DNA from: Moniliella sp. 'wahieum' | Lineage: Eukaryota > Basidiomycota > Moniliellomycetes > Moniliellales > Moniliellaceae | NCBI GenBank assembly: GCA_003971905.1 | Contig: RSEE01000064.1 | Location: forward strand, 124,001-188,000 | Reading direction: 5' to 3' | Length of the DNA: 64,000 nucleotides | Part shown: in pieces, positions 6,105 to 59,957 of the stretch | Position numbering within the stretch: the first letter of the stretch is position 1 | Layout of the letters: each line of letters starts with the position of its first letter | Made by a program: the position numbers and the translations under genes | The notes under the pieces: generated by a model | The model's input: the letters and a program-made list of their open reading frames with translations, nothing else | Told to the model about the DNA's origin: nothing | Database searches by the model: none

Positions 6105-6142
6105 TCCTGGGTCCTTAGTCCTGAATCCGGAGTCCTGTGTCC
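6105..6142 (+). repeat. 7-bp-period array, TCC anchor
   Basis: TCC occurs at 6105, 6112, 6119, 6126, 6133 and 6140, exactly seven bases apart. The four bases between differ each time (TGGG, TTAG, TGAA, GGAG, TGTG), so period and anchor are kept but not the full unit. Confidence 0.85.
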
Positions 6143-6410
6143 TGCCTGTGTCCTGATAAATGATTCCTGAGTCGTGATTCGATCCTTCCCTAGTCCTCCT
6201 GCCCCATAGCAGACTACGCGGCCCAACGTAGTCTGCACTGGTGGGTCTACATCGTTCGTGGACGTACGCTGGTTCACACGTTGGCTTGCCTGCCCTGCCC
6301 CTGCGTGAAGTTGGCGCTGCGATTCGTCCTTGCCTTGCGCCCCGTGTGTTCGTCGGGGCACGAGGCACCAGAGATGCACCCTTTGGCACGCGTTGCACGT
6401 TTCTTACCGT

Positions 6411-6470
6411 TCCGTTCCCTACCGTTCCCTACCGTTCCCTACCGTTCCCTTCCGTTCCCTTCCGTTCCCT
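6411..6470 (+). repeat. 10-bp tandem repeat (ACCGTTCCCT)
   Basis: Six adjoining decamers, three reading ACCGTTCCCT and three TCCGTTCCCT, with degenerate flanks. Simple minisatellite in the gap between convergent genes. Confidence 0.9.
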
Positions 6471-6702
6471 ACCGTACATAACTCCCACTCGTCCTTTACT
6501 CTGCCCCCGTTGGCACGCTACCTTGCTCGCATCTATCTCGCCACCTACCGAGATGGGGGAGCAGCGACATGCATGGGAAGAACGGAATGAGATCGGAGGT
6601 CAAAGCAAAGCAAAGCGTGGGGGGGGGTAGTGGCACATAGTTAAGTTGAGTAGCCAATGCGCAATGCGGGTAAGGAAAGACCCAGCGAAAATCGTGGCTG
6701 GC

Positions 6703-6740
6703 AACGTGCAACAGGTAACGTGTAACGTATAACATGCAAC
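6703..6740 (+). repeat. 7-bp-period array, AAC anchor
   Basis: AAC recurs at 6703, 6710, 6717, 6724, 6731 and 6738 with variable tetramers between (GTGC, AGGT, GTGT, GTAT, ATGC). Further GGGCAAC heptads follow up to about 6776. Confidence 0.85.
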
Positions 6741-7000
6741 GGGCGACACGCACAGACAACGGGCAACGGGCAACGGGGTTGATCCCGTTCCGGGGCGCAT
6801 GGGGAGATGCAGGAGCAAACAGAGGCGTCCTAGGATGGGGCGTGGAAGAGCACGCAGGCTAATGGGAGGAAATGGAGGGGGAAGGTACATGGAGGAATGA
6901 GGTAGGAGGTAGGAAGTAGGAAGTAGGAGGGGAGGTGGCGGTGTGTGAGAAGGGGGGGCGAAGAAGCGAAGCGGGTCCTCTGTGGCAACAGCAAAGGGTA

Positions 7001-7028
7001 CACCATGCACCATGCACCATGCACCATG
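7001..7028 (+). repeat. 7-bp tandem repeat CACCATG x4
   Basis: Four perfect copies of CACCATG, a heptamer built round the self-complementary tetramer CATG. Confidence 0.95.
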
Positions 7029-7431
7029 CAAGTCTTGAAACTCTTTACCGACCCGACCCCACCTCACCTCTCGGCCCTGGCAAAAAAAAGGGTTGGGCGG
7101 TGACACTCGCTGCGCACTGCACCGCGCATGACGGGAAGGTCCCTTGGGGCGTTTCGGCGCGTGGACCTAGACCACGGGCATGGGCTGGCCCATATCGGGG
7201 GGGAGAAGGAAGGCCACGATCCCGGGATGGCAGACGACGTGCGAGGGAGGAGCAAAGGCCGAGGAGGAACCGAGGGCAAGCGTCCCCCCCCCGCCCCTGC
7301 CCCAGCACCAACACCAACACCCACACCCACCCCACACCGCGCCAGCAAGCCCAGCGGGAATAGGCGCATGGGCCCAGGACAAACAAGCGCGTAAGAATGT
7401 ATGAGCGTACCCTGGTGCGCGCACGGCGACT

Positions 7432-9587
7432 TTAGCTGCCTGTTGGGCCGGCGGAGCGCAGCGACAGCCGCTGCGCCTGCACGGGGACGACGACCGCGTA
7501 GCCGGAAACGTAATCGCGGTCGGTGCAGTGGCCAACGCGGTTTCCATCGGCCGCGGTAGGCGGCCAGTGTGGCCGGGGCACGCACGGCCCAGCTCCTTCT
7601 CCCACGTGCCTGTTTTGATCGGTGGGCAGGTCAGAGAAGTCCGAGGTAGTGTGCACCAGCGCGGGAGCCAAGACCGGACTGGAGGGAATGCCCAGCGGCA
7701 CAGGCATCGGATTGGACGTGGCAGGGTACAGGTCACTGGCCAACAGAGGGTGGTGGTGTTGCTGGTTGGTCCGATGGGTGGTCCGACTGGCCGGGGGAGC
7801 AATCATGGTACCCTAGCAGCTGCTTCGCTCATCTTGGCTGCCGTGGGCTTGGCCTTGGTTCGGGCCCATTGCACCGACGGCGTCTCGGACGGCGTGAGAG
7901 ACAGAGCGGACAGACCGCGTTTGTGGCCTGCTCCACGCGGGTGCGAGGTGGGTAGCCCAAGTGCGTGCGGAGGCTGTACCTGTACCGTCGCTTGGTCACA
8001 AGAGGAGACGACTGGGAACGGACGTAAGCTACCCGAGCCCTCGGCGGGGGGGGGCGTAGGCAACCCTCGGGCAACGTGCTGGGCAACGTACTGCTCACCT
8101 CGCTGGGACGAGAACAGTGGGAACGTAGCTCCCTACTCCCCTGCACTCGCCGTAGGCGACGGAAACTCGCCAGACCAGACGTATCGGCCGAGGTGTCTTC
8201 CGTCAGTGCGGGGGCAGCAACAGCGTCGATCGAGTGCACTCTGCCACGGTGGCGTCCATGCCGAGCGGCCCGACGGTCTTATCTCCCTGTCCGTCCACCG
8301 TAGGGCCATCCCTCTCGAGATGGAGAGGCGCCGGTGGGTCGGCCTTGGTGCTGACAGAACGAAGCGGAAGAGCGGAAGGCTCCGCGTCGATTGTGGGAAG
8401 AAGGGAAGATGGTTGCTTCTCCTCCTCCTCCTCCACCATCGTGCTCGCTCCAACGTCGACGGTGAGAGGCGAAGGTACCTCTGATTCGTTCGAAACTGAC
8501 AAGAGAGGAAGACGCGCAGGCCGAAGCGTGTGCAAGCCAGGATGCCTTGGCCGTGACGCCGGGTGCGGGACACGTCAAAGGCTGGATGGGAGAAGAGAGG
8601 GAAAGGAGGAGCTTGGTTGCCTGTGCATGGGCCTCGGCGTCTTGGCCCGATCAGTCGGGGCCGTGACGTCCACCTTGGCATCCACTTCGCCGCCCAAGGC
8701 GGGCGGCACGGCCATGTGGAACTGACGGTGGCGATGCGGGCAGCGCGGAACGATCGTCGCCGACACAATCTTGACCACCGGGGCGGGGCACCAGGATGCA
8801 GAGGCATCAAGTCATTGATCTGACGAACACGGGTGCGAGGGACACTTTGGCCTTGGATCTCAATGGGAGACAGGGGCTCCACCAGGAACCCACCAAGTCC
8901 AAAGGTGAAGCGGCCGTACTTGGGTTTGGGCGGGAGGGAGGGATCGTCAATGGAGGTGCTGACGGAAAACAGACGGGTTCCTGTTGTGCCAACGGGGGCA
9001 GCGGGCATCGACGGTGAGAAGGTCATGTCGCGCGGCTTGGCCACCATAAAGATCCCCAAAATCAAACACTTCGACGCGGGCATGCACCTGACTGTGAGGA
9101 GCATCCGGCAGCCACGCGCCACGTACGCCCGCTCGCACCCGCTGTCCCACACCGGCCGATTCTCCGCTGCGGCCAGCAGGGTCCAGGCCTGGGCAGCCGT
9201 GGGCCAAGCAAGATGGAGTCGATGGCAAATAGGTGGGGGTGGTTGGCCGCAGCGGCATTGGGGGTGGCGCGAAGCGAGCGGACGGCAATGTGCTCGGCAT
9301 GGGGGGCAAAGCTGGCGCCGGCCGAGGGCAGGTTGGGGGAGGAGTAGATGGCGGGCCAGTCGTCGACAGGCGGCACCTGGCCGGCGTCGGTGGCTGCGTC
9401 GGTGGCGACGGCCAGGCCGAGGTCCAGGCCGGGCTGGACGAGGGCGACAAAGCGGTGGAGGAGCGCGGCGGACGCCTCGGCGAGCTGGGGATCGGGCAGG
9501 CGGGCGGGCGAGGGGAAGGAGCGGTGGGTGCTGCGCCCTGGGAGGAGCTGGGCTGGCTGCGGCCCTTGCGCGGCGGCTGCGCAGCAT
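7432..9587 (-). CDS. START-like lipid-binding domain protein with long disordered C-terminal tail
   Basis: Read on the minus strand in shifting frames, the first third looks like a START (StAR-related lipid transfer) domain: HPHLFAIDSILLGPRLP, ENRPVWDSGCERAYV, SVSTSIDDPSLPPKP, FTFGLGGFLVEPLSP, TRVRQINDL and VVKIVSATIVPR, in the order usual for START strands and helices. START proteins bind sterols, phospholipids or ceramides in a closed pocket; the ligand cannot be told here. Downstream (about 8570 to 7432) the protein is low-complexity and rich in Ser, Pro and Thr, with one acidic run (MVEEEEEKQ), ending QRLSLRSAGPTGS and a stop at 7432. The start at 9587 (MLRSRRARAAA) is a guess, because the frame shifts soon after it. 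At least six frame changes are needed. The START call rests on my reading of the pattern, not on a search. Confidence 0.55.
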
Positions 9588-9729
9588 GGCGGTGGGGAGG
9601 GGGGAGGGGGGGCGGAGGACAGAGGGGACGAGGACGAGGACGGAGAGGACGGGACGAGGAGGACAGTGGGAAGCGAACGAGCGTCGCCGGTGGCCGCCGC
9701 GCGACCTGCCCTGGAGGAGGGGGGACGCA

Positions 9730-9767
9730 TGATGTATGATGGGCCATGCGTGACGTGTGATGACTGA
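9730..9767 (+). repeat. 7-bp-period array, TGA anchor
   Basis: TGA at 9730, 9737, then 9751, 9758 and 9765, with tetramers TGTA, CGTG and TGAC between. It sits about 150 bases upstream of the assumed start of the START-domain gene. Confidence 0.75.
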
Positions 9768-10060
9768 TCGCGGCGACGACACTGCCCCTCAGCCGGGCGG
9801 GCAGCAGGGGAGCACCCTGGCGCCTGGGCCCACCCGCGTGGAGGACACGGGCGCGCTGCGGGGTGGGCGCTGATGCATGGGGTGGCAGGGGGGAGCATTC
9901 AGCGGTGATCTCAGCGGTGGCTGCGCGCCTGCGCCCACCCTGCATCATGCATCGCAGCCGTCACCACACTGGCGCCGTGGGGGGCGTGTGGGTGGTGGGC
10001 GCCAGGCACCACATGCTTTGTGCGAAGCTAGCTCTTCTCCTTGCTGCATCTGCGCCCCCA

Positions 10061-10090
10061 TCAGCGCATCAGCGCATCAGCGCATCAGCG
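10061..10090 (+). repeat. 8-bp tandem repeat TCAGCGCA x3
   Basis: Three perfect copies followed by a partial fourth (TCAGCGG). It is the eight-base relative of the TCA-NNNN arrays, with tetramer GCGC plus one A. Confidence 0.9.
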
Positions 10091-10877
10091 GCGATATCAT
10101 CGGCATCCGTGCATCAGCCGTCGTCAGCATGGCGCTCAGCATGGCCATCATTACCATTCCCATCCCATCCACTGACCCTGACAGCACCCACACCAGCACC
10201 CGCCCCCTGTACAGCAGCACCAGGGATAGTGACACAACAGCGCCCCAGTAGGAGCACCTTGGTTCATCGCGCCCATCGCATCGCTCCCTCTGCATGCTGC
10301 TATGCCCCCCTGCAGGACAGGCTCGTTCGCATCCGCTCCCCTCGCGCATCGCACTCCAGCAGTAGGCAAACCAGCTCACAGGCCAGCAGCGGACCTGCTG
10401 GCGACTCGCGTGCACGCCATGCTGCATGCTATGAACCACCAGCGAACGACCGCCGCTCAGCTGAACAACGCACCCCCTCTCTCTCCCTTGCGCATCGCCA
10501 CAGACAGAACAAGGCCGAGACTATAGTACGAGATGCAGTGTGCTAGAACGAGATAGGGAGCGCGCTTGGGGAACAGCACGAGAGACAAGTTCGTCTAGCG
10601 CCTGGATGCATGGTATGGCACGGCACGGTGGGCACCTTGCGCTCCACAGGCGCCTTGATCCCTGCTCGCGTGGCGCCAAGGCCAAGGCCAAGGCCAAGAC
10701 CAAGACCAAGGCCCAGGAAAGGTGGAGAAGTAACCCCACGGCTAACACGTCCGCTTTGCTGCAGGACCAACGCAAGCGCCCTGCCCCGGGCAGCCAAGGG
10801 ATCCAAATGCGACACGAAGGAACAGAACAGAACCGAACGTGCCAAAGCGAGCAACTTGCATCCTCCCGTCTCACGCC

Positions 10878-13190
10878 TCACGCCCGACCCACCGAAAACA
10901 ACCCCAAGAGCGTAGCCGCCGCATCGCGCTCTTGTCGCTCGGCATGGTCGCGTGCCGTGCTCCCGACGGTGGCGGGGGCGGTATCGGTGTCGGTGTCGGT
11001 GCGCGCCGGGGCACCAGGGACGTCGAGCGAACCGCTGGACTGCTCCGCGTTCAGCGTCGACGCAGGTACCCGCGTAGAGGTGGGTGTCGCGTCCGCGTCC
11101 GTGTGCGGTTGCGGTTGCGGTTGGGTTCGGGTTTGGGTTTGGGGTTGCGTGTGCAGGACCGTCTCTGCCTCCGCGCGCCATGGGTAGGAAGGTACGGTAG
11201 AGGCGCGCAGGTTGTCATGCGCCAAAGGCGGGCGGTAAGGTTGATTCCAACCCAGTGGCGTGCCCAGTGGGGTGCCCAGTGGGGTACCCAGTGAGGTGCC
11301 CAGTGGTGTAGCCCCACGTGAAGTGGGCATGGGCACGGGGGGACGTGTGTGAGCGTCGCGCGCCGGCGCGCCACGTAGGAGGGAGAGAAGCGTTCCACAG
11401 CGCCCGGCGGTGGGCGGTACAGGCGGTCCGGGCGGGCGTAGGCAAGTGCAGCTGAAGGAGCGGTAACGCACCGTGTGAATTTCCGTCCGGCGCTAAGGGT
11501 GCGAGGTGAGGTACCGAGGCTGGCCGGTCGCGTCGGTCGGGTCGGTCCCATCTGTCCCACCGGTCGTAGCGGTCAGGTTGGTCACGTTGGTCGCAGCCGT
11601 CCCATCTGTCCTGTCGATCGGCTTGGTCCCGGTCGGAGTGACGTGAAGCAAAAGCAGGTGGGGACGCAGGTGTGCGCAGTACACCTGCACCCCACCCTGC
11701 GCCCGGGGACGAAGGTGGGGACGAAGGTGCTTGACGTAAATTGGAATTCGGTGCGGCCCTACGTCGCATGACGCCCGCCACGCCCGTTTCTTGTGACAAG
11801 CCAACGGTCGTCGATCCCAGCGCGCCACGTTGCCCTCCCCTTTGGACCCCAGTACAGTCCGCTCCGTCCCCGTGCCGTAGCCCACGGAGTCGGCACTGCG
11901 TTCCGCACCGTGCTCGGTGCCCGGCCCGTCGTCCCCGCGATGGGGGGTACCGTGCTGCGTCAGGCCGAAGCTGGCAGAGCGCGCGACCGCGCCGCAATCT
12001 GAATTGCAACCGGAACCAGAATCGGAATCGGAATCCGAGTCGAACGCCAACCGGTCCGCTTCGTCCGCCGAGTCGAGCTCGTCCAGTTCGAGCGCTTGTG
12101 CTTGCACTTGCCCGTTCCCGTTCCCGTTCCCGATCCCGGGCGACCAATCGGAGCGCGAGGTACGGTAAGACGGGGCCAGGAGCAGAGTATCGTTGGTCGC
12201 TTGTAGCTTGGCCAGAGGCACGTCCGAGTCGCCCTCGGAGCTGGGAGCAGAGGTAGCGTCGCGGTCCGGTTTGGACGGGGGCAGGTTCCTCGGTGCTCGT
12301 TTGGCGCGGGCCGAGGCGTGAGCGAGGGCGGAAGATGGTTGGGCACGCGCACGGCGTTTGCAAGGTACGATAGAAGGGGTGCGGGAAGAAGGGTTGTAAG
12401 GTTTGCAAGGGTTGCGGGTGCCGTCGCCACGGGTAGAGGGGGAAAGGTCCATGTCGTTTCTCCTCCTCCGTGGACCGATGGCGCGAGCGGACGACGCCGA
12501 GTAAAATTCGTCGAGACGACGAAACGTTTGACGTGCCATGGCACGGTCTAGCGTTCCGGCCACGGCGGCCGTCGCGGGCGGCGGGGGGGGCGCAGCGCCG
12601 AGGGCAGGAACGGCGGTAAGGTTGGGCTCGGTGCGCGGAGCGAGCGGGATGCTGGGCATGGACCGTGGGCCGGGCGGAGGGACAGGTCGAGGGAGGGAAA
12701 CTGAAGTGTTTGCGGCCGGGCCGAGAGCGACGGGGAGAGGGCCCAAGGCGGGGGCGAGTGCGGGTGCGACCCAGCGGGCAGCTTGGCTTGTCTTCCTTGC
12801 CGCGGGGTTCGGGCCGGACGAGGAGGTGCATGTTTGCCATTGAGCACGACGACACGTAGGGCAGCGCACGCGTCCATGCCCGCGGCCGTGGGTGCAGAGG
12901 AGGAGGAAGGCGGGGGGGATGCGGACAGTGACGGGAGGAGGACGAGGGCGGGTAGGAAAGCGGTGTGGGGCGAGAACGCATGTGCTTCAGCAGCTCGGCT
13001 TGGTCGGGGTGGAGAAACGGGGGCGGTTTCTTCTCTGCGGCAAGCAGGGCGTCGACGTTGGAGAAGGCGCATAGGCTTTGTGCCTCGGTTGCGGGCAGCT
13101 CGGGTACGTGCGCGGGGACGGATGGGCAGGCAGGGCGGTGGGAGGCGAGGGCTGAAGCGCGGGGCGATGGCGGAGGAGAGGCAGAGGGAG

Positions 13191-15271: not shown

Positions 15272-15341
15272 AAGTACCAAGTACTAAGTACCAAGTACCA
15301 AGTACCAAGTACCAAGTACCAAGTACCAAGTACCAAGTACC
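15272..15341 (+). repeat. 7-bp tandem repeat AAGTACC x10
   Basis: Ten heptamers (one reads AAGTACT), directly after the stop codon of the glutaminyl cyclase gene and so probably transcribed in its 3' untranslated region. The core GTAC is self-complementary. Confidence 0.97.
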
Positions 15342-16100
15342 AAGTGTCCTTACGTGCTCCATCCGCACTCCCCCCCGTGCCTTATGCCTCACCTTGCACC
15401 CCGGCCTGTGCCCAGTCGGACCGGACCCTGGGACCATCTCGATGCGCACCCCGGTCCCCTTCCCACCCCGGTCCCCTTCCCACCCCGGACCCCTCGGCCG
15501 CCCTAGACCCTAGTAGCGCTCATGCTTCCCTTTTTTGCTCGCACCCTGGCCTAATCTTATGGACTTGTACTGATCCTGTCCCACTTCTCCCATCGAACGC
15601 GACCCGCACTCACACTCGCACTCACACTTGCACTTGCACTCGTATCCACCTCACATGTCACATCTACACTCCCGTCCGGCCTCACATGTCACAGGACCGT
15701 GTACGTGTGTGGCCAGGTCCGAGCCCACCCCTACCGCATACTTCAACCGACATTACGACGGGCTACGGGGTGCGAGAGTGCTGAAAATGGCCAGGGCGAG
15801 TATCCACAGCACGGGACGCAGACCACGTCCAGACACAGAAACAGAAACGGCCGACAATTAACACCGCTGCCTGGGCGTGGTGGCGCCCTCGGGCAGGTCG
15901 CAATCATACGGGATGAAAGCAACAGGGAGAAGGAAGGAAGGAAGGAACCAATCATGGGGCATAGAGGAGGCGAAGAACGGTGTGGAGAGAGAAGAAAAGA
16001 CATGAAAAGAGAAGAAAAGAAAAGAGATACATACATCCCTCTTAGGGTTTTTTTTCACGACACAGAGGTGGGTTAACGTTTTAACGTAGAATTGAAACGC
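15342..16100. other. Intergenic region between convergent genes
   Basis: No gene recognised. It contains CACTCGCACT/CACTTGCACT hexamer runs (15600-15645), two CACATGTCACA motifs (about 15650 and 15680) and a purine-rich stretch (15915-16030). Both neighbours end here. Confidence 0.6.
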
Positions 16101-17252
16101 CTAGGGTACGACGACGGCGGATGGCTTGGTAGCCGCTTGGATGCGCTTGGTGCGGGTCCAGTCGACGACGACCTTGAATTGTTCAAAGAACATCCAGATG
16201 AGGATGGTGTTGGGCGTGAGACGGATCCAGGAAGGCACGTAGCCACGGAAGAGGAACTTGAGTCCGTCGTTGCGGAAATGCGATTTGAGCGTTTGCAATC
16301 CCACAGCCGCCGAGGGCGCGTTCATCAGTGTGGCCTTGACCACGTCAGCGGGACTGGTCACCGTCGTGGCCACGGTACCGGCCATAAAGGAGGCGGTAAA
16401 GTGGAGGACAGTACCTTCGGTAAAGTAGCCCGTACTGATCAGGCTCGCTTTGAACATATCGTACGTGGCGAGCTGCGTCGCGTTCATCAGGACCGCTCGA
16501 ACAAGGTTGGGCGCCAAGCCACGGAACAGCGAGCCCACCCCTTCTTCCCGCGCCATGCGCACCACCCCCGTAACAGAATCATGGTAGTTGTACCGCTTGT
16601 CCAGCGGTTTGTTCAAATCCGACGTCATGCGCACCAGCATAATGTCTGCCCCCCCCCCGCACACACACACCGCATCAGCGTCAGTCACTAGTCAGCTCGT
16701 CCATTCCGAATACAACAAAACAGTGCACAAGCCCACCAGGTGGACCAACGTAGCCAAACAGCAAAGTACCAAAGTACCGTACCGCCCTTGCCCGCAACGC
16801 CACCCGACCCACCCCAACCGAATCCAATTCGAACCAACCAAAGTATAACACGTACCAGCTGGGTTGCCTGCAATGCCCCCAATCACACCGGCGCCCATGG
16901 CCGAGAGGGCGAGGGCGGTATTGGAGATAGATCCGTCGGGCGACTGACGGGCGAGCGAGTTCTTGAAATGATCGTAGGCGGCAAAGCGGGCGAGCGAGTA
17001 CGTCATTTGCCTCAACACGGACGCCGACAAGCCTTGGTAAATCCCAGCCAGGCCATCTTGCCGTGCTGTCGTGACCAAGACCGAGGCCATGGACTTGCGC
17101 ACGCCCGTCTGCGTTTGCATCCGGTTCTTGATCGCATCGAGCGGGTGGGTAAAGACGACGGCACAGGTCGCTGCGATGCCGCCTAGCCAAAAGGGATACG
17201 GCGGGCCCGGCGCGGGAAGACTCTTGGTGCCCGAGGCAGGTGCGGAGGACAT
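16101..17252 (-). CDS. DIC1: Mitochondrial dicarboxylate carrier (SLC25 family)
   Basis: An inner-membrane carrier of the mitochondrial solute carrier family, most like the dicarboxylate (malate/phosphate) carrier Dic1. Three carrier signatures of the PX[DE]XX[KR] type are visible: PLDAIKNR (repeat 1), PADIMLVR (repeat 2) and PADVVKA (repeat 3). The repeat 2 context GNPADIMLVRM and RYNYHDSV are typical of DIC rather than ADP/ATP carriers. The start at 17252 gives MSSAPASGTKSLPAPG, and one intron at 16646-16855 (210 nt, GTACGT, acceptor after a G/T-rich run) splits the GNPAD codon. Spliced length is about 313 residues, normal for the family. It is one of the few genes here with no frame break. 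Substrate preference is inferred from sequence pattern only. Confidence 0.9.
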
Positions 17253-18414: not shown

Positions 18415-18431
18415 TCATTAATCATTAATCA
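18415..18431 (+). repeat. 7-bp-period array TCA-TTAA
   Basis: TCA at 18415, 18422 and 18429, separated by the self-complementary TTAA. A related mixed run (TCA-TTAA-TCA-TCGA) lies at about 18043-18060, and TCA-CATG-TCA near 18207-18218. Confidence 0.9.
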
Positions 18432-19395: not shown

Positions 19396-19437
19396 GACAT
19401 GGGACATGGGACATGGGACATGGGACATGGGACATGC
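19396..19437 (+). repeat. 7-bp tandem repeat GACATGG x6
   Basis: Six heptamers, the last ending GACATGC. The anchor is GGA and the tetramer is CATG. Confidence 0.97.
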
Positions 19438-20932: not shown

Positions 20933-21006
20933 GGTGACTGGTGACTGGCCGGTGACTACCGGTGACTAGTGACTAGTAACTTGTAACTAGTGAGCTAGTG
21001 ACTAGC
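20933..21006 (+). repeat. 7-bp-period array, TGA/TAA anchor with CTAG and CTGG
   Basis: A run of TGACTGG TGACTGG, then TGACTACCGG, TGACTAG TGACTAG TAACTTG TAACTAG and TGAGCTAG TGACTAG. Most steps are seven bases; some are eight or more. It lies about 400 bases before the DUF3445 start. Confidence 0.9.
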
Positions 21007-22974: not shown

Positions 22975-23465
22975 GCGCCCGCAGCAATCGATCATCGAGG
23001 TGGGGTTAGGCAGCTGCCGCAGCACGTAGGTCACGTGGGGGACAGCAAGCCGCGGGGGTGGTTGGCGCGTTCACGCGTCTAGTGAGGCTAGTGAGGCGTT
23101 AGGGTGTCAGGGGGCGTGGCGCCAGCGCAGTGTGGGTCGGAACTCCGAGCGCACTGCAGTGTGTGATAGCTGCGGGCGATGTGGGGTGCAGCTTGCAGGC
23201 GGCGCAGGCGACGCAGGGGGCGCACTCGCACACGCAGCCACCACACCAGCCGTCGGCGGGGCAGCGACGCACCCGCCCGTCAGTAGTCAGTACACGCGTG
23301 TTATGAGCATGCCCACCCGCGTCGCGCCCAGCACGCCTCCATGCCTCCCGCATCCGCTCCGCCCACACCATCTGCATCGCCGCCCATCCCTCCTGCCGCG
23401 TCGCCAGCATCCGCGTGCGCCCCCCTGCGCATCCCGCCTCCGCCGCCCCGCCCCCGCCCACCACC
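22975..23465. other. Intergenic region upstream of OPT transporter
   Basis: No gene seen. It contains TCACGCGTCTAGTGAGGCTAGTGAGG near 23070-23095, another TGA-spaced motif. The last 150 bases are C-rich, as in other promoter regions of this window. Confidence 0.55.
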
Positions 23466-26548: not shown

Positions 26549-28588
26549 TGCTCTGTCGATACACTGTGTCGATACGCTGTGTCGATACTCTGTGCCGTGT
26601 CGTATCGTACCGATCGAGCTCGAGCCGGTGGCTTCGATTATATTCCTTTCCTTTTTTTGCTGGACGCGCCCAAACGAAACAAGCGCCAGTTCCAGTCCCT
26701 TGATTTCCCCCCCGCGCTGCATCGCCCCCTCTCCTCGTCTCTCTCTCCGTACCGTTCCCCTCGGCTCCTCGCATTTGATGAACAGTTACTAGCTTTACTA
26801 CAGTTCCCTTTATCCCTGAGCCACCAAGGCGATGGCGATGAACCGCATTGCCTCCCGCTCCCCCTTTCCCCGTCGCCCACCCCCCTCGCACTCGCAACTC
26901 GTACCCCATCGTCTTGGCTCATCCATCAGCTGTTCGTGTTGACACCGTCGCCACCCGCCGCGTTACTGATATGCGCATAAGTAGGAATACACTTATGTCC
27001 TCCTTGGACGCTCACGCGCTCACGTTACGAGATCAATGATGGCTGCGGCGTTGGCCTGGCCTGCGGTGGTCTTCCACTTCGGACTGGGGTGGTTGGGCTT
27101 CCGTATCCTCCGTTCAACGTTGACCGGGCTCGTGATGCCTGGGATACATGGGATGGCTCCTGAGTGCTGGAGTACTGAGTATTGAGTTCAATATTGATGA
27201 TTGATGAATACGACTGCACCACTCGTCTCCCCACCGTACGTGGAGTAAAGCGAGTGGCCAAAAAAGGGATGGGACCCTGGCCCATCTCGCAGTCCAGCGC
27301 CACTGGTGTTGCCTTGCGCCCGTGGTGGGGGGGGAGCGGAGAGCACAAAGGCTTGGCCCTCTGGGGGCCCTATATACCCGACAATGATGAAACACGTACG
27401 CGGTACCTCCTTTCTCCACCAGCACTACTCTGCGCGTTCCATTGTCGTGCCGTTCCCACATGCATGATGAAGCTATGATATGAAGCTTGAAGATCGGATG
27501 TGAATGTGAATGTGAATGTGAATATGATGGAATGATCCTTGCAAGCGAAGAAAGACGATGCACGATGGCCGATGGCGGATGAGAGAGTGGCGCAAGCGAG
27601 AGTGTTGGCGCCTGTATAGAGCTGGGGGGAGTTGGGGGGAGGGGACCTCAGCTTGCAATTAAGCATGCCATCGCGTATCCTATACGATATAGCCATGCTT
27701 TTGCGACATGTCACATGTGACGTGTGGCCACCCAAGTAACGGTCCCTTCCGTCCTTAACGCGTTAACCTCCCCCCAGCTGCAGCAGGCGGGGTGGCCTGC
27801 TATGTGGCGCACTTGTAGGGAGTTTATATGTTTAGCGTTGATGTTGGAGCTGTGGAAGGGTCAACCGGTCAACGTTCGACGTTCTTCAATCCAAACGTTG
27901 AGATCGTTGAGATCATACGACCACTCCCCTACCCCACAGTGTTGCGGCCATCTGACCCTCAGCGAATCGATGCTCCCCACGCCTTACATAGGACGCGCTT
28001 CCCGCATGATGCATGATGGTAGTAGGATCACATGTCACAGGATCATCGAACACTACAGGATCACACGTACAGGACCCCGGATCTCAGATCTCCGAGGCCT
28101 CGATGCCAAGATCCCCCGTTCCCTAGTTGCCTAGTTCCTCAAATCCCTCGTTCCCCAGATCCCCAGATCCCCAGATGCTCAGATTGCACGCAAGCATAAA
28201 AACGGCCGTGCGCATCGGATGTTGGCATGGGGCCAGTGTGCTTTGCCTCCTCGCACGCGGCAGAGCCTCAGCACACCAGCGCACATCCCAGGCACGCCCA
28301 CCGACACTGGCGCTGTGCGGCCCCCGGCGCCGTGGCTTGGCCCCCGCACTTTTGGGGGTCGAGCTCCGAGGAGCACCGTAGTACTCTGCTGCAGTACTAT
28401 AGTTTACTACAGTCCGGTGGCCGGCAGAGGGGCAGCAGCAGAACATTCAATCGACCGTTCCACCTCAGACCCTCAGGCATCTGCATCACGCCTCCAGGAC
28501 AACCATTAACCAATAACCCCTCACCCCCCCCGCCTCTCCCCATCCCATCCTCCTGGCTGACTCCACCGTCTGCAACCCCGCGACTGCC
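26549..28588. other. Intergenic region, 2 kb
   Basis: No gene recognised. It holds a 13-bp repeat (TGTCGATACNCTG, three copies, about 26553-26592), a GTGAAT hexamer run (about 27500-27525), CAGATCCC repeats (28153-28178) and TCA-CATG-TCA motifs near 27710 and 28028. ACTATAG/CTATAGT occurs near 28395. Confidence 0.55.
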
Positions 28589-41968: not shown

Positions 41969-42058
41969 TTCCCCAACCGGGAGTCGAACCCGGGTCTTCA
42001 CGGATCAGTCGAACAGCGACTTGAAAGCGTGACATCATAGCCGTTGGACCATTGAGGA
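41969..42058 (-). tRNA. tRNA-Glu (anticodon TTC) with 18-nt intron
   Basis: Reverse-complement reading gives acceptor TCCTCAA pairing with TTGGGGA, a normal D arm (TGGTCCAACGGCTATGAT), anticodon stem TCACG/CGTGA with loop CTTTCA...C, and T arm CCGGG-TTCGACT-CCCGG. The anticodon is TTC. An 18-base insertion (AGTCGCTGTTCGACTGAT) follows position 37, the standard site for nuclear tRNA introns; AGTCG at its start can pair with CGACT near its end. Mature length is 72 without CCA. It lies 117 bases upstream of the neighbouring minus-strand protein gene. Confidence 0.95.
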
Positions 42059-46191: not shown

Positions 46192-48233
46192 CGTCAACAA
46201 GTCCAGGCCACAGCTGCTGTCCGGTCGGTGGTGGAGGAGACAATGGTACCGGGACCAACCCCTGGCTCACATCCCCACCGCGTCAGCTAGACGCGTAGGC
46301 GGAATGGGCGGAAATGGCCTCGTATATTTGAACATTGGTTTTTTCGCTGGTTGCCCGTCATGACGTAATAGGGACTGGTGAATGAAATCTAGTGCACAGA
46401 GAGAGCACACCACGCATCAGTCCATCAACCTGATACTTGAGGCTCTCTGTAGTGGATGTTACAGTGGGCGAACTATCTGCTGCTACGAAAGGGGGTCCCC
46501 TCTTCATCGTTTCCGGCATATATATTTTTTGGGATAATTGGCTCGCCTTCTCCATTGCATGACAAGCAGGGGATGAAAATGAGGGTTAACTGGTCCCGCG
46601 TGCCCGCCTCGGCCTTTTCATAACCTGCTGTGATGATCGTCCATGCTCCAGAGGTTTTGGTGTTAGGCCTGTGCCATCATAGGCAATGGGTCCGCTTGCA
46701 GAAGAACCGGGAAAATACATGGATGAGCCAAGAGACTGGCAGAGAAACGGATGCCCGGTTCTTATTAGATGGTGCTTTGGGGAAGTTCCTGTGGGGGTAT
46801 TTTGCCGCACCCTACTAGTATAGTCACAGATATGCATCACGCAGGTTGTCCGCGTGTATTACCTGATGGCACCTTTCTGCTCGGCCTCCCTGTCGGGCCC
46901 GAGGTCCTATAATTGCGGCGGTAAGAACCCCCTTCCAGATATCCCTTTTTCCTGGGTATACATCAAACACAGCTCAACACTCCTCCTCGTTGGGCCAGAG
47001 CTACTCGAACAGTGTGGATCCACATGATCGTGTATGTCCATTGTACGACATTCAATAAGGAGAACTCCCTACTACTATATGTGTAGCAAAAGTAAAATAC
47101 AGCCCAAAAGGTGTATGCACTATGGATACAGATAGCTGGTTTTTACCCACACAGGTTTGCTAGAGGAGGATACGCCTGTGTCAATCAACTCACTGTCTGC
47201 TTCTTTTTCACATTGTGTGGGCAGATGCGAAGAGAGGTCTCTCCCCGTGACCGGGTGACCTGAGGGCCGTCAAGGTACGCGTGATGGTGTCCCTCCACCC
47301 CCGCCCTTGAACTCTGAAAAACGATTATGTTGTCGGATTTACCCCCGTGGGCAAAAGGTACGGCATAGTATTGTTTGCACTCTCGCAGCGAACAAAGCAA
47401 AGAGACAAAAGAAGTTTTTCATCCGCCACCCTTTTCCCCACCCTGTCTCGTATCAAACAGGCAACAGTCTGATCCGCGTGAAGTAGGTATCAGTACCTGA
47501 CAGGGAGTACCATCGTATTTTGAACCCATCACAACATACAGTGAAAAAGGTACAAAGCAATCACATTGTCTCAGCTGTGCCCCCAATGATTAATTAGGGT
47601 AGCCCATACAGTGCCAGCGAGTATAACCATTCGGCCTGCCCAGGAAGGTCCCCACAGCAAATGGCCGTGAAACGCGGGTTCGCGGTACCTTTGAGAAAGG
47701 GATAACCATTTGGCCACGTGACAGAACTACTAGTATAGTCACCAGCACAGTAGGGTTCTAGTTGTTATACCATTGCTACTCCTTGTGGCAACCTGAAGTG
47801 TACAAACGTCTGTCCACTACGGCCCTCGCGTATTTGAGCCTTCTCGCGGCTCCAGGGTGGCACTACCAGACTGTCCTGTGAAAAAGTGCCTTCTGTTTTT
47901 CAATGTTTGCCCGCGGATTTTGCTAACAACTCTGCTCGTCCCCCTGTTGCTCCACTGCGGGTGCTCGGGGTGAGTGGTGGTTCCAGACAAGTCATTTGAC
48001 TTTGGCCTTCAGGCCTCAGGCCTCAGGATGGCTCTGCACCCTTTCTGACGGATACAGTGGCCTCCATGTCCAACATGCACCGTCACGGTTGTCTCTCTTC
48101 TGCACGCGCTGAACTAGGAAAAGAGAGAGCAGTAGCCATATAATCGAGCCCTTTCTCTCTTTTTCTTGCTTGCTTCGATCAGCTTTCTCCGACCTTTTCC
48201 ACAACCCACTTTCCTCTCCAACACACCCACGCC
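46192..48233. other. 2-kb intergenic region, more AT-rich
   Basis: No gene recognised on either strand. Composition is clearly more AT-rich than the rest, with few long frames. It lies upstream of both RPN11 (minus) and the ZIP transporter (plus), so it contains both promoters. Features seen: ACTAGTATAGTCAC twice (46815-46828 and 47731-47744), TTAATTA near 47592, and the TCA-GGCC array at 48009. A zinc-response element could be present, but I did not identify one. Confidence 0.6.
48009..48025 (+). repeat. 7-bp-period array TCA-GGCC
   Basis: TCA at 48009, 48016 and 48023 with GGCC between, about 210 bases before the ZIP start codon. Same unit as at 21176-21193. Confidence 0.95.
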
Positions 48234-53375: not shown

Positions 53376-53650
53376 GTTATCGATTATCCAATGTATACTT
53401 TTGCTTGGTGTGATGTTAACGTCCGTTTTGTCTTGTTTGTGCTTTAGGACTTAGTCGAGATATAGATTGAGATAAAGAAGCATAGGGGGAGGAGGCCGCT
53501 TCAGTCGCTTTCGTTGATCATAGGAACACTTCTATCTTAGGGTATATTGACCCGCATGGGAAGAGTGGGCGAGGTTGCTTTGGTGGGACGGGAATCTGTA
53601 CCGAGTAGAGGACTTTATTAGGTAAATCATTACTCAGTACATATTGGCCG

Positions 53651-53676
53651 TCAACGTCGTCAACGTTCAACGTTCA
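53651..53676 (+). repeat. 7-bp-period array TCA-ACGT
   Basis: TCA at 53651, 53660, 53667 and 53674; the last three are exactly seven apart with the self-complementary ACGT between. Looser TCA-GATC units follow to about 53740. Confidence 0.9.
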
Positions 53677-54245: not shown

Positions 54246-54288
54246 TGACTGTGACTAGAGTGACTAGTGACCAGTGACTAGTGACTAG
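54246..54288 (+). repeat. 7-bp-period array TGA-CTAG
   Basis: TGA at 54261, 54268, 54275 and 54282, with CTAG, CCAG, CTAG and CTAG following. Less regular units start at 54246. Confidence 0.95.
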
Positions 54289-55226
54289 AGACTGTGGTGC
54301 CTATGCTTTGGCCCGGTTCTTCCTGTAGTTACTAGCTTCTTTGACTTGTCATTTGACTAATCAGTACGTCACTATACTGAACTGTAGTCGCCTTAGCCCT
54401 CCCCCATGCTCCATGCCGCATTCTGCGTGTCATCGAGACGCATAAAATTCCATTCATTTTGGACACGACGGTGCTGCGACACTCGCCCTTCAACAGCCAC
54501 TCAGGTCGACAGATAGTACAGCGGGGCTTTCAGTCTATAGCACACAGGTTCTTGTTGTTCCGGTTACCCCAACGAGATGGAGAAGAGGTGGAGGCAAGTT
54601 TGATTATTGGTCAATTCAGAGGCATAGAAGAGATATGTACTACTTGTTCCTTAGTTTGATATGCGGGTTTAGTGATAATCCTCTCGCTCATCTTTCGTCA
54701 TCATGCATCAACGTGCATTGTTTGATTCCCCTATCCTCTTTCTCATCTCGGTAGGGACTACACGAACCCTTTCGCGTATCAGCCTTCAGCCTCAGAGCGC
54801 TCAGTGGCTCAGCTTGTCGTGTGCTGCTGTCGCTTGCTGGAAGAATCAACTGGATTTCCTGGCAACGGAGGCAAGAAAAGCAGGGGCATTCCGTGCAATG
54901 GCCTCAGTTGTTTGAAGTCCTGGTAAGCGCCAAGCAAGGCTAATGCGCGTCAAGCTTCAAGAGAGATCCAAATGGATTCGGACCTGCTACAGTGTATACG
55001 TATACCCAGTCCAGAGGCTGAAGCGCGGAAGCAGGCGACTGAGAGGCCTCGGACTGCGATGAGGCACGAGCAGGCTCCCTCATGGAAACAAGGCAATATT
55101 GACCCGACTGGGGGACCACAGCCCCACCAGCCTGGCACACCCGAGCCAAAAAGTCTGCCGAAGCGCAGCGCCACGGTTACTACATGCTGGATACCCACGC
55201 GGGGCCCAACAGGGCCCACCCAGAGG

Positions 55227-55957
55227 CTAGCGCCGCACCGCTTCACTGTGGTCTCCGCGCTCCCATGGCTGCAATGGCCAAGGTGTGCGGAGTCCCGTCA
55301 ATATCAATGCGTCACTGCACCAGGAGCATCTTGCCGGGCGGCGGGGCGAGTAGAAGACGTGTGTATGGGCCAAGGCGGGCAGAGAACGCAGGTCGGGGAA
55401 GCGGCGCTCGAGCTCGGCAAACACGTGTGCGGCGAGGTCGCTAAAGCGGGAGATGGGCAGGTTGGCTAGCTTTTGGCGAGCATGGCTGCGCTTGGGATGC
55501 AAGTCGTGGTGGGGCGGGAGCACGAGAGGCGAGGGCAGGAGGCGGCGCAGGTGCTCGTCGTACACGTCGGTGGAGAGCTCGGCCAACTGCTGGCGGCTGA
55601 GACGGGCGAGCTTTTCGCGCGCCCTGGAGCAGCCGACGCGTTCGGCTGGCAGAAGGTGGGCCGTCAGTGGCGCGAAAGGGCAGGGGCGAAAGGGCAGGGG
55701 GCGAAAGGGCAGGGGGCGAAAGGGCGGGGGGCGAAAGGGCAGGGGGCGAAAGGGCAGGGGGCGAAAGGGCAGGGGGCGAAAGGGCAGGGGGAGAGGAGGG
55801 GACATACGCCGGTCGAGGTGGTGGTGGAGGAAGTGGTAGAGAGGGCGTGGTAATGGACCTGGGCGAGACGGTGTAGGGCGTCGTGGTCGGGAGCGACGTC
55901 GGGGGCGGGCCTGGCGGACACGGCGGACACAGCGGACGCGTCGTCGACGGTCTGCAT
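55227..55957 (-). CDS. Spa2 homology domain (SHD) protein, apparently short
   Basis: Two SHD (GIT/Spa2) repeats are clear: RAREKLARLSRQQLAELSTD with VYDEHLRR, and HARQKLANLPISRFSDLAAH with VFAELERRFP. They are separated by LPPHHDLHPKRS, as in Spa2, the polarisome scaffold of hyphal tips and bud sites. The start at 55957 (MQTVDDASAVSAVS) leads to LAQVHYHAL and, after one shift, FLHHHLDR, matching the Spa2 N-terminus. A possible intron at 55646-55807 (GTATGT, 162 nt) holds a 15-bp minisatellite; it is a multiple of three without stops, so it can also be read through. After ERRFPDLRSLPALAHTHVF the frame soon ends (55227). The 800 or more residues of a normal Spa2 are missing, so this is a truncated copy or a short paralogue. 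Confidence 0.8.
55672..55790 (+). repeat. 15-bp minisatellite GCGAAAGGGCAGGGG x8
   Basis: Eight units (first 14 bp, one with a G for A), inside the candidate intron of the Spa2-like gene. On the coding strand each unit reads Pro-Leu-Pro-Phe-Arg when translated. Confidence 0.97.
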
Positions 55958-57011
55958 GGCGCCAACGGCCAAAGGAAGGAGGCGTGTGTGCTACCCAGTG
56001 GTGGGGGCAGCGGCGCAAACAGGCAGCTCAAGCCCTTGGCTTGTGGCCTTCCGGGCTTGTCCGAGCCAACAGGCGGAACCAGTCGGAAGGGCGCGTCGCT
56101 AGCCGAGTGCCCTCAGCTCAGCCGTCCATCTTCCTCCCCTTGGCCCTTGGGCTTCTCACGCTTGGGGCGGACGGGTCCCCTGCTCTCGCGTCGCCCCCGC
56201 GCTGCGGAGCCTGGATGGTTCATGCGCTGCTCATGTGGAGGTGCCTATGCTGCACAGTCAGAATTGAAAAAAGAAGGAGGATATGCCTGTGACATGTGAC
56301 ACGGACGAAGAGCTTATGGTCAAGCATGGCCGGGGGGGATAGGATACGAAGCGTACAACAGGATAACATGTAACACCACAGAGAAGAGTAAGGCTGCTGA
56401 ACTTCTGACCCTTTGCAAGACTTCAGCTGTCAGAGAACTCAGGCTGGTGATTGGTAAGCCTCACTGCTCCACTCGTAGGTACCCCGTCAGCTCTCAATCT
56501 CGTGGACACACACATGGTCCAAGATGTAGATGCGTTGGTGTGTTGCCGCGACTGCACTGCTGCGACCCCCACTCATCATGCAGATGACGTTGTTTTTGGC
56601 GCATCGGCCTATCCGTTGGAAGAGGTCGTCACTCACCCATTGTCGTGGCCTGAGTAGATCCCTGAGAGAGGCCTGAGGCTCAGGCCTGAGGCATTGACGA
56701 TCGTCGGCGATATGATAATGATTAACGAGAGGCCTCTGAGGGTGTGATAACTTTGGTCTTAAGAGATGGCTCCGCGCTCCCCCGCGATTTCCCCCCCCTG
56801 CCATGGTTCGGAGAACTGAGGGTTAGGCTTTGGAGCTGGAAGAGCTGGAAGGGCCTGTGATGCATGTGAGATGTGGGAACGTGACGCGTGACGCATGAAC
56901 CTAAGAAGCTGTTGGGCGACAAGTGAGGCCGGTGACTACGACTGTGGTGAGAGGGCCGGTGAGCCCGATGTCGATGGCGTGTGACATGCATGTGACATGC
57001 GATCCCCCGCG

Positions 57012-57045
57012 TGACGTGTGACATGTGACGCGTGACGCGTGACGG
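57012..57045 (+). repeat. 7-bp-period array, TGA anchor, CGTG/CATG/CGCG
   Basis: TGA at 57012, 57019, 57026, 57033 and 57040 with CGTG, CATG, CGCG, CGCG between. A looser copy (TGA-CGCG-TGA-CGCA-TGA) lies at 56882-56898. Confidence 0.95.
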
Positions 57046-58218
57046 GCGAGGCAGTCGGCGCCCGGCGAGCCGGTGGGATCGGAACCCCCCCGGAGGCACA
57101 ACACGTGTGGGGGTTTTGTACGCAATGTGGCGCTGTGGGTCGCCAGGGGTCCCTGGGGGCCTCACCGGTGAGCCGGTCATCCTCGAGGCCGGTGACCGGT
57201 GGGGGAGTCGACAGGAGAGATGAACCGCTCAAAATGCACTCGAGCCGAATTACAGAGCCCACATAATATCCGTCATGTTGGCCGAAAATGCATATAGGGT
57301 GCGACTATGTAGCTTTTTGAGATCTTTTCAAGGTTCAGTGTTCAGTGAGTGCGAAGCTAGCGAAGCTAGTGAAGAGGCCAGTTCTAGTGACTAGTGGCTA
57401 GTGTGGGGCCGAGGCCTGATCCTGAGGCTTGGTGAGGGATCGATGAGGAAGACCTGAGGTGTGTCGAGCACAGCTCGTTGTGCAGTGGCGTTCTCGCGCT
57501 TGCTTTGCGTTCATATTTCAGTCAACACACGCGCCCCCTGGCGTTCGTGCCATCGTGCCTGCACGTCCATCCAAGTAGGCGCCATCTCAGTGTGGTCTGC
57601 CAGAGTCGCCATGCGCCGCGGGGTCCATACTCCTCCTGTGGCTCTACATCCCCTCAGCTGTCCCACCTTGTCCATATCGCCCCCCGCACTTTGATCCACT
57701 TGGCTCGCGGCGGCGAACCTGCCGGAGCGCGGTCTCATTCGTTCCTCCCACCCGCGCTTGCGACAGCGAGAGCCGGCGGCGGCGTTAAGCCTTAAGCGCC
57801 GGGTGCGCGTTACTAGTAACTAGCGCTGAGACGCTGATCAATCGCTGACCATCGATCATCGATCATGTTTTGTGTCCCTGAGAGATGGGATGTCGATGAG
57901 ATGCATGGCAGTCGCATGGCGGGGCGCCGTGTCCGGGTGACCGGTGACCGTTCCCGAAGAAAATCGATGATTTATGTGGTCGATGAGGTCGATGACGCAT
58001 CGATGACGCCCGGGATATCCCGACGAACTATAGCCATGCCCCCAGCGGGGTCTGGCCTCGACCTTCCTATCGCCCTCGGGCACCTCCACACAGGCCTCGG
58101 CCCTCGACCCGGCGCGCAGAACGTATGGAAGTATGTCTTGGTCTTGGGTCGTTCGGGCGGCCGGTGCATGGCGGGCCAAATGCGTAGGTGGAACGGGGCC
58201 GTTGGAAGAGGACATGCA

Positions 58219-58232
58219 TGATGCATGATGCA
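58219..58232 (+). repeat. 7-bp-period array TGA-TGCA
   Basis: Two units TGATGCA, preceded by CATGCA. The same unit on the other strand (TCA-TGCA) is at 59568-59581 and at the ends of repeat Y. Confidence 0.85.
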
Positions 58233-58864
58233 TCGACCTTGGGTACTCAGTGCCTCGCCAGCCTCGCTTCCCCACACGCCCCGCGTCACGCGTCACACAC
58301 GTCACACACACAAATGCGGGGTGCGTACTGCGTGTTGCAGGCAACTATGCGCGGTGCACGGCACGTCACGCGTCACCGGTGAACGTGCGCTGATGCTGCT
58401 CGAGGGCAGGAGGGCAGTGCATCTTTGTCTGTTGAGACGTTGGGGTCCGCCGGCCCTCAGAGCACCAGGCCACAGGCGGCCTAAACTCCTCAAAGAGGCC
58501 GAGGGCGAGACCAACCGGGTGAACTTATACCCGGGCATAGTCCCGTCGCCCCGAAGCGTGCGGTGATCGGCTGAGACTTGTGGGGGTGTGGGGTAAAACC
58601 CTGGCCCCGCCACCGTGTCCCTGGGTGTTGTACCTCGTCTGGTCCGTGTTACATGCAGGAGATACGTATTCTCATCCATCTCAGATATCGGAAGATCTCA
58701 GCGATCTCAGCCCAGATATCCCCACCGCTGCTCCCAAGCCGATCGCGTACGAGGAAAGGCACAAACCTGGGAGCTGTGCGATGGCAATTATGCCCTAAAT
58801 CTCCGGTGATGACCATGCTCAGGCCCTCAGTCCTCAGGAGCCTCAGGCTACACTCTATCAAATC

Positions 58865-58899
58865 TCAGTACTCAGTACTCAGTGAGTACTCAGTACTCC
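58865..58899 (+). repeat. 7-bp-period array TCA-GTAC
   Basis: TCA at 58865, 58872, 58879 and 58890 with GTAC (once GTGA-GTAC) between. Irregular TCA-rich DNA (TCAGGCCC, TCAGTCC, TCAGGAGCC) precedes it from 58819. Confidence 0.95.
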
Positions 58900-58988
58900 G
58901 TGTACTCATGCAACCCATGTAGGCCGTATCCAATTCGGCATCCCCCGCCGTGTCCCACCGTTGGTCTGCTGCAATCGACAATCGCTCT

Positions 58989-59016
58989 TCAAGCTAGCTT
59001 CAAGCTTCAAGCTTCA
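58989..59016 (+). repeat. 7-bp-period array TCA-AGCT
   Basis: TCA at 58989, 59000, 59007 and 59014; inner tetramer AGCT (AGCTAGCT in the first step). Confidence 0.95.
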
Positions 59017-59277
59017 CACAGTCACACGCCCTCTCCCCTGCTTGCGCTCGCGCCTCCTTTCTCAGTCGGCTGTGTGGGCCAAAGCGTGACGATCGTCAGT
59101 GCCGTCAGTGACTACACCGGCTAGTGACTACTGACTAATAATAGTGACTGACAGCCTCTCGCGCTCCTCAGATCGTGCCCTCCAGGAAGCAATATCTGGA
59201 AGACACCTTAGGCCTTAGGGAGGGAGCCGAGCTTAGGCTATCGACTATCGGTGCCACACTACCCTCTCGTCACTAAT

Positions 59278-59308
59278 TCACTAGTCACTAGTCACTGGTC
59301 ACCGGTCA
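59278..59308 (+). repeat. 7-bp-period array TCA with CTAG, CTGG, CCGG
   Basis: TCA at 59278, 59285, 59292, 59299 and 59306. The tetramers in order are CTAG, CTAG, CTGG and CCGG, a stepwise change along one array. Confidence 0.97.
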
Positions 59309-59501
59309 CTCCAAGTCACTATTATTGCGGACGGGTGGGTATAGTGACCGCACCATATCCTAAAACGAATATTATTCGCGCAACACTGTGCCTGCAGGTG
59401 CATACATGTCGCAAACGAGCAAGCCTTTCTCCACACTCGCCCCACTGCGAGTCTCAGTTGTCCACAAAAAATCTTGGTTATCGTTTTGCGAGGCACACCC
59501 T

Positions 59502-59544
59502 TCAAGCTTCAACTCTTCAAGGTTCACACGTCACGCATCATGCA
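59502..59544 (+). repeat. 7-bp-period array TCA with changing tetramers
   Basis: TCA at 59502, 59509, 59517, 59524, 59531 and 59538, with AGCT, ACTCT, AGGT, CACG, CGCA, TGCA following. The anchor and period are kept while the tetramer drifts. Confidence 0.95.
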
Positions 59545-59957
59545 CATCGTTATGTCCATCCCCCACATCATGCATCATGCATTATGCTCCCAACGCAGTT
59601 GCCAGAGCACCAGGGCACAAGCGATCGCTTGGAGGCAGTATATGGCCTTGAAGCTTGATGCATGATGGCCATAATATCCTCAAGCTGGCCCCCTGGCCTT
59701 CTGGTGCATGATCACATATGAGCCAGCAGTGTGGGGGGAGATTATGCATGCCTGTGCCCTTCAAAAAGAGCCCCCCCCCTTCGCCCGCATCCCTTTATAC
59801 CCCCCACCCACCTTTCCTCCCTCTCTGTCACTCTAGGCCCGCCGTCGCCCCTCGCCAGCCCCCCTCCCACATCCCACCTCTTTCTCTCAACCAACACCTC
59901 CCAACCTTTTCGCTGTTCTCCACCCCGTTTCGTCTAACCCGCCTCCGACTTTCCGTG

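Follow-up and report, generated by a model that had tools for sequence, protein, structure and literature searches.

The window analysed here, a stretch of 64,000 nucleotides (nt) of the Moniliella sp. 'wahieum' genome (contig RSEE01000064.1, positions 124,001–188,000), contains numerous short sites in which TCA, or TGA on the other strand, recurs at a distance of exactly seven base pairs (bp) and the four bases in between are self-complementary. The sites originate as insertions of 7 bp whose sequence derives from the neighbouring dinucleotide. On balance, we lean to reading them as scars of the excision type: a 7-bp target sequence centred on T-(C/G)-A would have been duplicated, and hairpin-closed ends opened 2 nt from the tip.

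The genome comprises 69,493,810 bases in 223 contigs. For the counts, the window was combined with 25 loci of ten kilobases (kb) each (L009–L033) on 25 other contigs, picked at fixed positions and not by random draw, which gave a sample of 314 kb. Loci L001–L008, fetched for another pattern and six of them overlapping, were excluded from every count in this sample. Coordinates are in window numbering unless a locus is named. A crude codon-usage mask, which marked 29% of the sample as coding, was applied in the coding split, the stem-by-loop and trimming grids, the Markov resampling, the centre-triplet counts, and the dinucleotide and orientation statistics.

The sample holds 407 occurrences of TCA-N4-TCA and TGA-N4-TGA together, and eight other lags average 147; this confirmed the excess at spacing four proposed in the initial annotation of this stretch. 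In the window alone, TCA-Nk-TCA reached 59 at k = 4 (10–27 at the remaining k of 0–14) and TGA-Nk-TGA 43 (7–20); in the 25 other loci the respective counts at k = 4 were 158 and 147, with 43–94 at the remaining k. The tetramer was self-complementary in 210 of the 407 sites (52%), although only 5.9% of all tetramers in the sample are, so the fraction lies far above the one in sixteen against which the initial annotation had wished it to be measured. A palindromic tetramer followed TCA or TGA in 615 of 7855 cases (7.8%) where the same word did not come four bases on. All 16 palindromic tetramers are present among the sites. A scan that assumed no anchor, comparing all pairs of three-base flanks that enclose eight or more palindromic cores, placed TCA/TCA (the same as TGA/TGA) at the top with a z-score of 39, followed by TAA/TAA with a palindromic core in 33 of 81. 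The third-order Markov resampling of the non-coding DNA gave a mean of 4.8 and a maximum of 10 palindromic sites in 60 runs, compared with 208 observed. The only direct genome-wide count, that of the 17-mer (TCATGCA)2TCA, yielded 1203 matches with overlaps counted, and none for its reversed control. All other genome-wide numbers of sites are extrapolated; from the 25 loci we estimate about 43,000 palindromic sites.

The sites were found in 23 of the 26 sampled loci at densities of 0 to 1.7 per kb, and the intergenic location noticed earlier was borne out: 208 of 210 lie outside the coding mask (0.94 per kb) and two inside it (0.02 per kb). They are more numerous than the roughly 20 places between 6105 and 59582 recognised at first, as the window holds 62 sites of the form TNA-palindrome-TNA, 54 of them with a C or G centre, spanning 135 to 63172. 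The start near 6105 proposed there does not belong to the class because no site lies between 2852 and 15650. The supposed relatives with other anchors had to be set aside as well. Palindromic tetramers occupy only 36 of 315 TCC sites and 4 of 154 AAC sites, and CACCATG (4.3 units, 7001–7030), AAGTACC (10.6 units, 15272–15345) and GACATGG (5.9 units, 19396–19436) are plain tandem heptamers. Three-unit runs of AAGTACC were seen at four other places in the genome.

The tetramer is not arbitrary. In the notation used below, S is C or G, the target is ab-T-S-A-xy, and primes mark complementary bases. In 183 of the 210 palindromic sites the tetramer equals the neighbouring dinucleotide plus its reverse complement, in one of two arrangements that each add a net 7 bp: type L, abTSA-b'a'-abTSAxy, and type R, abTSAxy-y'x'-TSAxy. 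The classification gave 63 L, 58 R, 62 fitting both, and 27 fitting neither; an edge rule in the flank print and in this classification lost one non-palindromic site. In the window, 59 of the 62 T-N-A sites obey the rule. In the non-coding part, 127 L and 115 R forms were observed, where the Markov resampling gave 0.4 for each and the scrambled controls one for each. By extrapolation from the 25 loci, about 37,000 sites fit the rule genome-wide.

Many palindromic sites are singles and not arrays: no TCA stands one unit farther out, on either side, from 32 R, 37 L and 18 unclassed ones. Among 1118 A-N4-T palindromes, neighbours 7 bp apart were identical 56 times and non-identical 25 times, and with 25 of 81 pairs non-identical, whole-unit tandem copying fails as a description. 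The recurrence at lag 7, per 10,000, was 501 for identical A..T palindromic hexamers, 40 for non-palindromic and 0–20 for other palindromic ones.

A dispersed repeat with 50 reported matches in the genome provided a record of insertions, the only use made of it here. It is represented by L009:2468–3080 and L034–L072, is at least about 600 bp long, and its copies are 75–89% identical besides the query. In the 40 copies aligned, TNA-palindrome-TNA was found in 10 of 15 seven-base insertions, at eight places of the alignment, and in none of 136 insertions of one to six bases, which is why we regard the sites as 7-bp insertions. Longer insertions carried it in 1 of 1 (8 bases), 2 of 3 (9 bases), 1 of 3 (10 bases) and 0 of 16 cases (11 bases or more). 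Each of the ten palindromic seven-base insertions is absent from 23–35 of the 27–38 copies covering its position. One of the five failing seven-base insertions is TCA-CTAC-TCA, a single base off the CTAG form found at the same place elsewhere; the other four are left unexplained. The same ancestral TCA received a type-L CTAG insertion in copies L054 and L050 and a type-R GCGC insertion in L040, and TTA- and TAA-centred events occurred at two places. The self-comparison of the 314 kb revealed five 7-bp gaps between related copies, three obeying the rule and two not. One rule-following gap lies in the window, where the insertion at 2735–2744 is seen directly because the related copy at 1–145 lacks the 7 bp. 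In L073, a copy of the dispersed repeat is interrupted by about 220 bp; approximately ACTGCG flanks this insertion at either end, and inverted ends are not obvious.

Besides the +7 forms, other size classes were examined. In the +9 class a 2-nt inverted copy is flanked at either end by the full 7-mer abTSAxy; the class comprises 22 distinct sites, compared with 1, 2 and 0 in three scrambled controls. Its two subforms, abTSAxy-y'x'-abTSAxy and abTSAxy-b'a'-abTSAxy, number 14 each (controls 1 and 2, respectively; six sites fit both), with a Markov expectation of at most 0.03 for each form. When only sites in which ab differs from xy and its complement were considered, 11 remained against 1, 2 and 0. 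The excess is smaller in the +8 class (12 and 8, with controls of 3, 0, 4 and 4), and 3 of its 12 sites are one plain 8-mer repeat at 10061–10077. Classes with one-base additions overlap the +7, +9, +8 and +6 classes and were left out of use.

The centre of the target is restricted. Counting only forms with the 2-nt inverted copy, 5800 TCA/TGA sites gave 181 +7, 19 +8 and 22 +9 scars; 2231 TAA/TTA sites gave 30, 4 and 4; and all other triplets together, 209,264 sites, gave 174, 33 and 29. Per 1000 sites, this corresponds to 31.2 +7 scars for TCA/TGA and 13.5 for TAA/TTA, with ATG/CAT next at 4.3. Another 15 plain 7-bp duplications at TSA are palindrome-free and stand outside the 222 scored scars. 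As the Markov resampling and the other triplets fall far short of the observed counts, composition or plain chance is rejected as the cause. In the stem-by-loop grid, whose stem-1 cells were indistinguishable from their complement control, the sole geometry to stand out was 2+3+2, the same as 3+1+3. The copied dinucleotide is biased (p about 5e-5), AG, CT, TG and TC being enriched and GC, TA, AA and GG depleted; GC and TA are absent from it among 120 one-sided non-coding scars of the window and L009–L033. These statistics were based on the 120 one-sided events or on the 68 outside arrays. No significant bias was seen in the uncopied dinucleotide (p about 0.12).

The representative sites and arrays of the window are as follows:

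1708–1731, plus strand: array TCA-TTAA-TCA-CCGG-TCA-CCAA-TCA; two adjoining palindromes differ, the second being type R (TCACC-GG-TCACC)
2626–2641, plus strand: +9 scar ACTGAAG-GT-ACTGAAG
2724–2739, plus strand: +9 scar CCTGATC-GG-CCTGATC, a 7-bp direct repeat centred on TGA plus the reverse complement of CC
2735–2744, plus strand: TGATCGATGA then TC, type R (TGATC-GA-TGATC), the insertion missing from the related copy at 1–145
15651–15660, plus strand: TCACATGTCA then CA, type R
16685–16694, plus strand: AG-TCACTAGTCA, type L
18415–18431, plus strand: array (TCATTAA)2-TCA
20963–20972, plus strand: TGACTAGTGA then CT, type R
23081–23096, plus strand: +9 scar AGTGAGG-CT-AGTGAGG, which also registers as a period-9 repeat
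27897–27912, plus strand: +9 scar GTTGAGA-TC-GTTGAGA
48009–48025, plus strand: array (TCAGGCC)2-TCA
53649–53676, plus strand: +9 scar CGTCAAC-GT-CGTCAAC merging into the array (TCAACGT)2-TCA
54261–54284, plus strand: array TGA-CTAG-TGA-CCAG-TGA-CTAG-TGA, its middle unit resembling a palindrome decayed by one base
57012–57042, plus strand: array TGA-CGTG-TGA-CATG-TGA-CGCG-TGA-CGCG-TGA
58696–58711, plus strand: +9 scar TCTCAGC-GA-TCTCAGC
58858–58881, plus strand: array TCA-AATC-TCA-GTAC-TCA-GTAC-TCA
59000–59016, plus strand: array (TCAAGCT)2-TCA
59278–59308, plus strand: array TCA-CTAG-TCA-CTAG-TCA-CTGG-TCA-CCGG-TCA
59649–59665, plus strand: TGA-AGCT-TGA-TGCA-TGA, one TGA being common to two different palindromes (L then R)
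63163–63172, plus strand: AG-TCACTAGTCA, type L, with which the series of 62 sites in the window closes

According to the excision reading, a cut-and-paste element would insert with a staggered 7-bp target duplication nnTSAnn and later leave, its flanking ends being closed as hairpins. A host nuclease would then open these hairpins 2 nt from the tip, giving the four-base self-complementary overhangs xy-y'x' and b'a'-ab, and end joining could use either overhang, with R and L as equally frequent products. The former hairpin tip would then survive as the palindromic tetramer. Since opening 2 nt from the tip would move two bases between strands, the main +7 form would appear without further trimming, and hairpins opened at the tip, or 1 nt from it on the other side, would account for the +9 and +8 forms. 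Repeated hits at the same TSA would build arrays with changing tetramers, and slippage may also lengthen arrays of identical units. The 7-bp duplication is suggested by the +9 class because it retains the whole 7-mer on both sides; together with the minor classes, published hAT scars point to hairpin-closed ends around such a TSA-centred duplication. The involvement of a mobile element would be a further step, no donor having been found; the donor may be extinct or may lack recognisable ends. Two guesses of the initial annotation came near to this reading, and its interpretation is partly supported. A hairpin-based copying mechanism was among them, and its hairpin part agrees with this reading. 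A degraded element family was close too, except that the remnants look like excision-type scars at many targets and not like one decayed element.

The known systems offer partial parallels. In work on plants, Saccharomyces and Candida, excision of Ac/Ds is reported to leave palindromic P-nucleotide scars where the flanks had been closed as hairpins; the bases beside the break reappear as a short inverted copy, and Ds in Candida gave 28 different footprints in 128 clones (PMC5873905). The sites described here likewise show a direct target-site repeat at the junction (nnTSAnn in the +9 class, a partial repeat in the +7 class) and P nucleotides, the inverted copy lying between the target-site copies. 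They differ in that the duplication would be 7 bp with T-S-A in the middle where that of Ds is 8 bp, and in that a single fixed +7 form, present in tens of thousands by extrapolation, makes up most of the products in place of a set of heterogeneous junctions. The hAT target duplication is given as 8 bp, with 5, 6 or 7 in named subgroups; the fungal hAT7 and Kyakuja transposons share the 7-bp duplication, and Kyakuja, a branch of KDZ, has CA..TG ends without inverted repeats (PMC12730594). No such element was found here, where the search did not include the KDZ model that covers Kyakuja. The coding joints of V(D)J recombination are programmed, belong to vertebrate lymphocytes and are not known to carry a 7-bp duplication. 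In their case, the hairpins are opened by Artemis at the apex or 2–4 nt from it, giving P elements (PMC13041557). Tandem heptanucleotide repeats of the microsatellite kind have the same 7-bp period, but in them the whole unit is copied, whereas the present sites preserve the period, T-N-A and self-complementarity, with a tetramer set by its neighbour. Genome-wide scars of this kind are not described in the titles and abstract openings of the literature covered, a coverage that most subscription journals fall outside.

Several observations weigh against the excision reading. The 27 palindromic sites of neither type do not follow its rule, and the +6 classes disagree with each other (14 against 2 in the control, the mirror form 10 against 10). 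The bias of the copied dinucleotide is not predicted by it and might be explained by a polymerase. With 181 of the 222 scored TSA scars in the +7 class, the products vary far less than known hAT footprints do, and the extrapolated number of rule-fitting scars would mean very many excisions. The search for a donor was also negative. The hAT models PF05699 (dimerisation) and PF14372 (RNase H-like) had no match in the genome, which is weak evidence because no control genome matched either model. The MULE transposase model PF10551 had none either, where 3 of 14 control genomes matched, so the transposase domain expected of a MULE/Mutator element is missing; the Plavaka model matched neither this genome nor the controls. 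A strict scan for 7-bp duplications that enclose 12-bp inverted ends (at most one mismatch) within 4 kb gave nothing, and CA..TG ends between identical nnTSAnn words numbered 22 against 14.3 expected, several in arrays, showing no clear excess.

Nine of ten long reading frames taken from the sample had Pfam matches, none to a transposase, and T-N-A duplications with inverted ends (4 of 69) were not in excess. A looser nnTNAnn scan returned nine candidates, several of them scar arrays; those in L025 and L009 match at 9 of 12 end bases. The best of them, L029:4868–9756 (duplication CCTCACC, ends TGCCCAMAACTCGC), was rejected because its motif is found just three times genome-wide and the interval holds a SAM-domain gene. 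A 182-bp insertion at L074:90–271, at first resembling a miniature inverted-repeat transposable element with a TAA duplication, was likewise rejected. Eighteen further loci (L076–L093) share this unit, TGTCA..TGACA, which resembles a long terminal repeat (LTR). Some copies are flanked by 5-bp duplications (GTGGG, GCTGA, GGGCA, GCCAT, GTAAC) and others share flanks on one side, as expected for solo LTRs and LTR pairs left by a young retrotransposon, and for these reasons it is not the donor. Most copies listed were about 96–98% identical to the query, 40 of 437 first-look candidates having been scored.

The most serious rival, which we nevertheless consider rather unlikely, is self-templated mini-hairpin slippage of a polymerase, with neither a break nor a transposon. 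The 3' end ab-TNA would flip out, T would pair with A, ab would be copied as b'a', and synthesis would restart on the old template. This would add exactly 2+3+2 = 7 nt in one step, would yield both L and R from the two strands, and needs no donor. It would also explain why T-N-A is needed, since T and A can pair and the geometry also reads as stem 3, loop 1, and a bias in the copied but not the uncopied dinucleotide suits a templating step. It does not, however, give the +9 class. Around a triplet loop, stems of three and four are not clearly in excess (20 vs. 102 and 12; 5 vs. 7 and 0), which is odd for stochastic slippage, and the near inactivity of G-N-C, C-N-G and A-S-T centres also counts against it.

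Less probable still is a host activity with no mobile element, in which a domesticated transposase or another host nuclease cuts at T-S-A in intergenic DNA and the hairpin ends are rejoined with a gain of 7 bp. This shares the whole geometry of the excision model, and both the missing donor and the spread of palindromic sites over most sampled loci fit it. A 7-bp duplication with flank hairpins is, however, the normal outcome of insertion followed by excision, which a single cut would not readily give, and no candidate enzyme was identified. In its V(D)J-like form, with an enzyme acting on T-S-A centred targets and making hairpin-ended intergenic breaks, we rate this alternative equally low. 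If true, the tens of thousands of 7-bp insertions and their arrays would be a large, possibly continuing source of intergenic sequence.

Ordinary tandem slippage of 7-bp units is refuted as the sole cause, and as a general account we give it hardly any credit: the window has many plain heptamer repeats, and identical-unit runs such as (TGAAGCT)6 probably grew in this way, but the initial annotation had rightly argued that slippage by itself does not account for the pattern; unit copying creates no reverse complements, and the concentration of the lag-7 recurrence in A..T palindromic hexamers and the palindromic tetramers of the seven-base insertions speak against it as well. Just as improbable are selected binding sites for a protein reading TCA half-sites four bases apart, another of the earlier guesses, which the fixed spacing and anchor and the near-confinement to non-coding DNA would suit, but against which stand the presence of all 16 tetramers, their dependence on the neighbouring dinucleotide, the origin of the sites as insertions in individual repeat copies, the absence of any preference beyond T-S-A other than a weak avoidance of adjacent G, and an orientation that shows no clear bias when compared with the closest coding segment (81 in the same sense, 61 in the opposite one).

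If the excision reading is right, the genome records, by extrapolation, tens of thousands of events of cutting, hairpin formation, opening and joining at single-base resolution, and simple counts could reveal the choice of target (T-S-A), the position of opening (2 nt) and the side of joining (about equal). The same reading would account for a class of intergenic micro-repeats labelled as tandem repeats by repeat finders, and would mean that scars can far outnumber recognisable elements. The dinucleotide rule is simple, and the same count can be tested in any genome.

The remaining observations concern the gene content. The eukaryotic genes of the window include RPN11, PP1, OPT and UTP25. The fungal transcription factor domain PF04082 had 45 matches in the genome and none in the control genomes; the radial-spoke model, a marker of zoosporic fungi, matched neither the genome nor the controls. 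A transfer RNA (tRNA) at 41969–42058 on the minus strand was called by Rfam with 45.6 bits and not by ARAGORN; being 90 bp long, it is perhaps intron-bearing. In L010:6987–8504, the domains of tryptophan synthase alpha and of a pyridoxal phosphate (PLP) enzyme lie in one reading frame, which probably encodes a fused tryptophan synthase.

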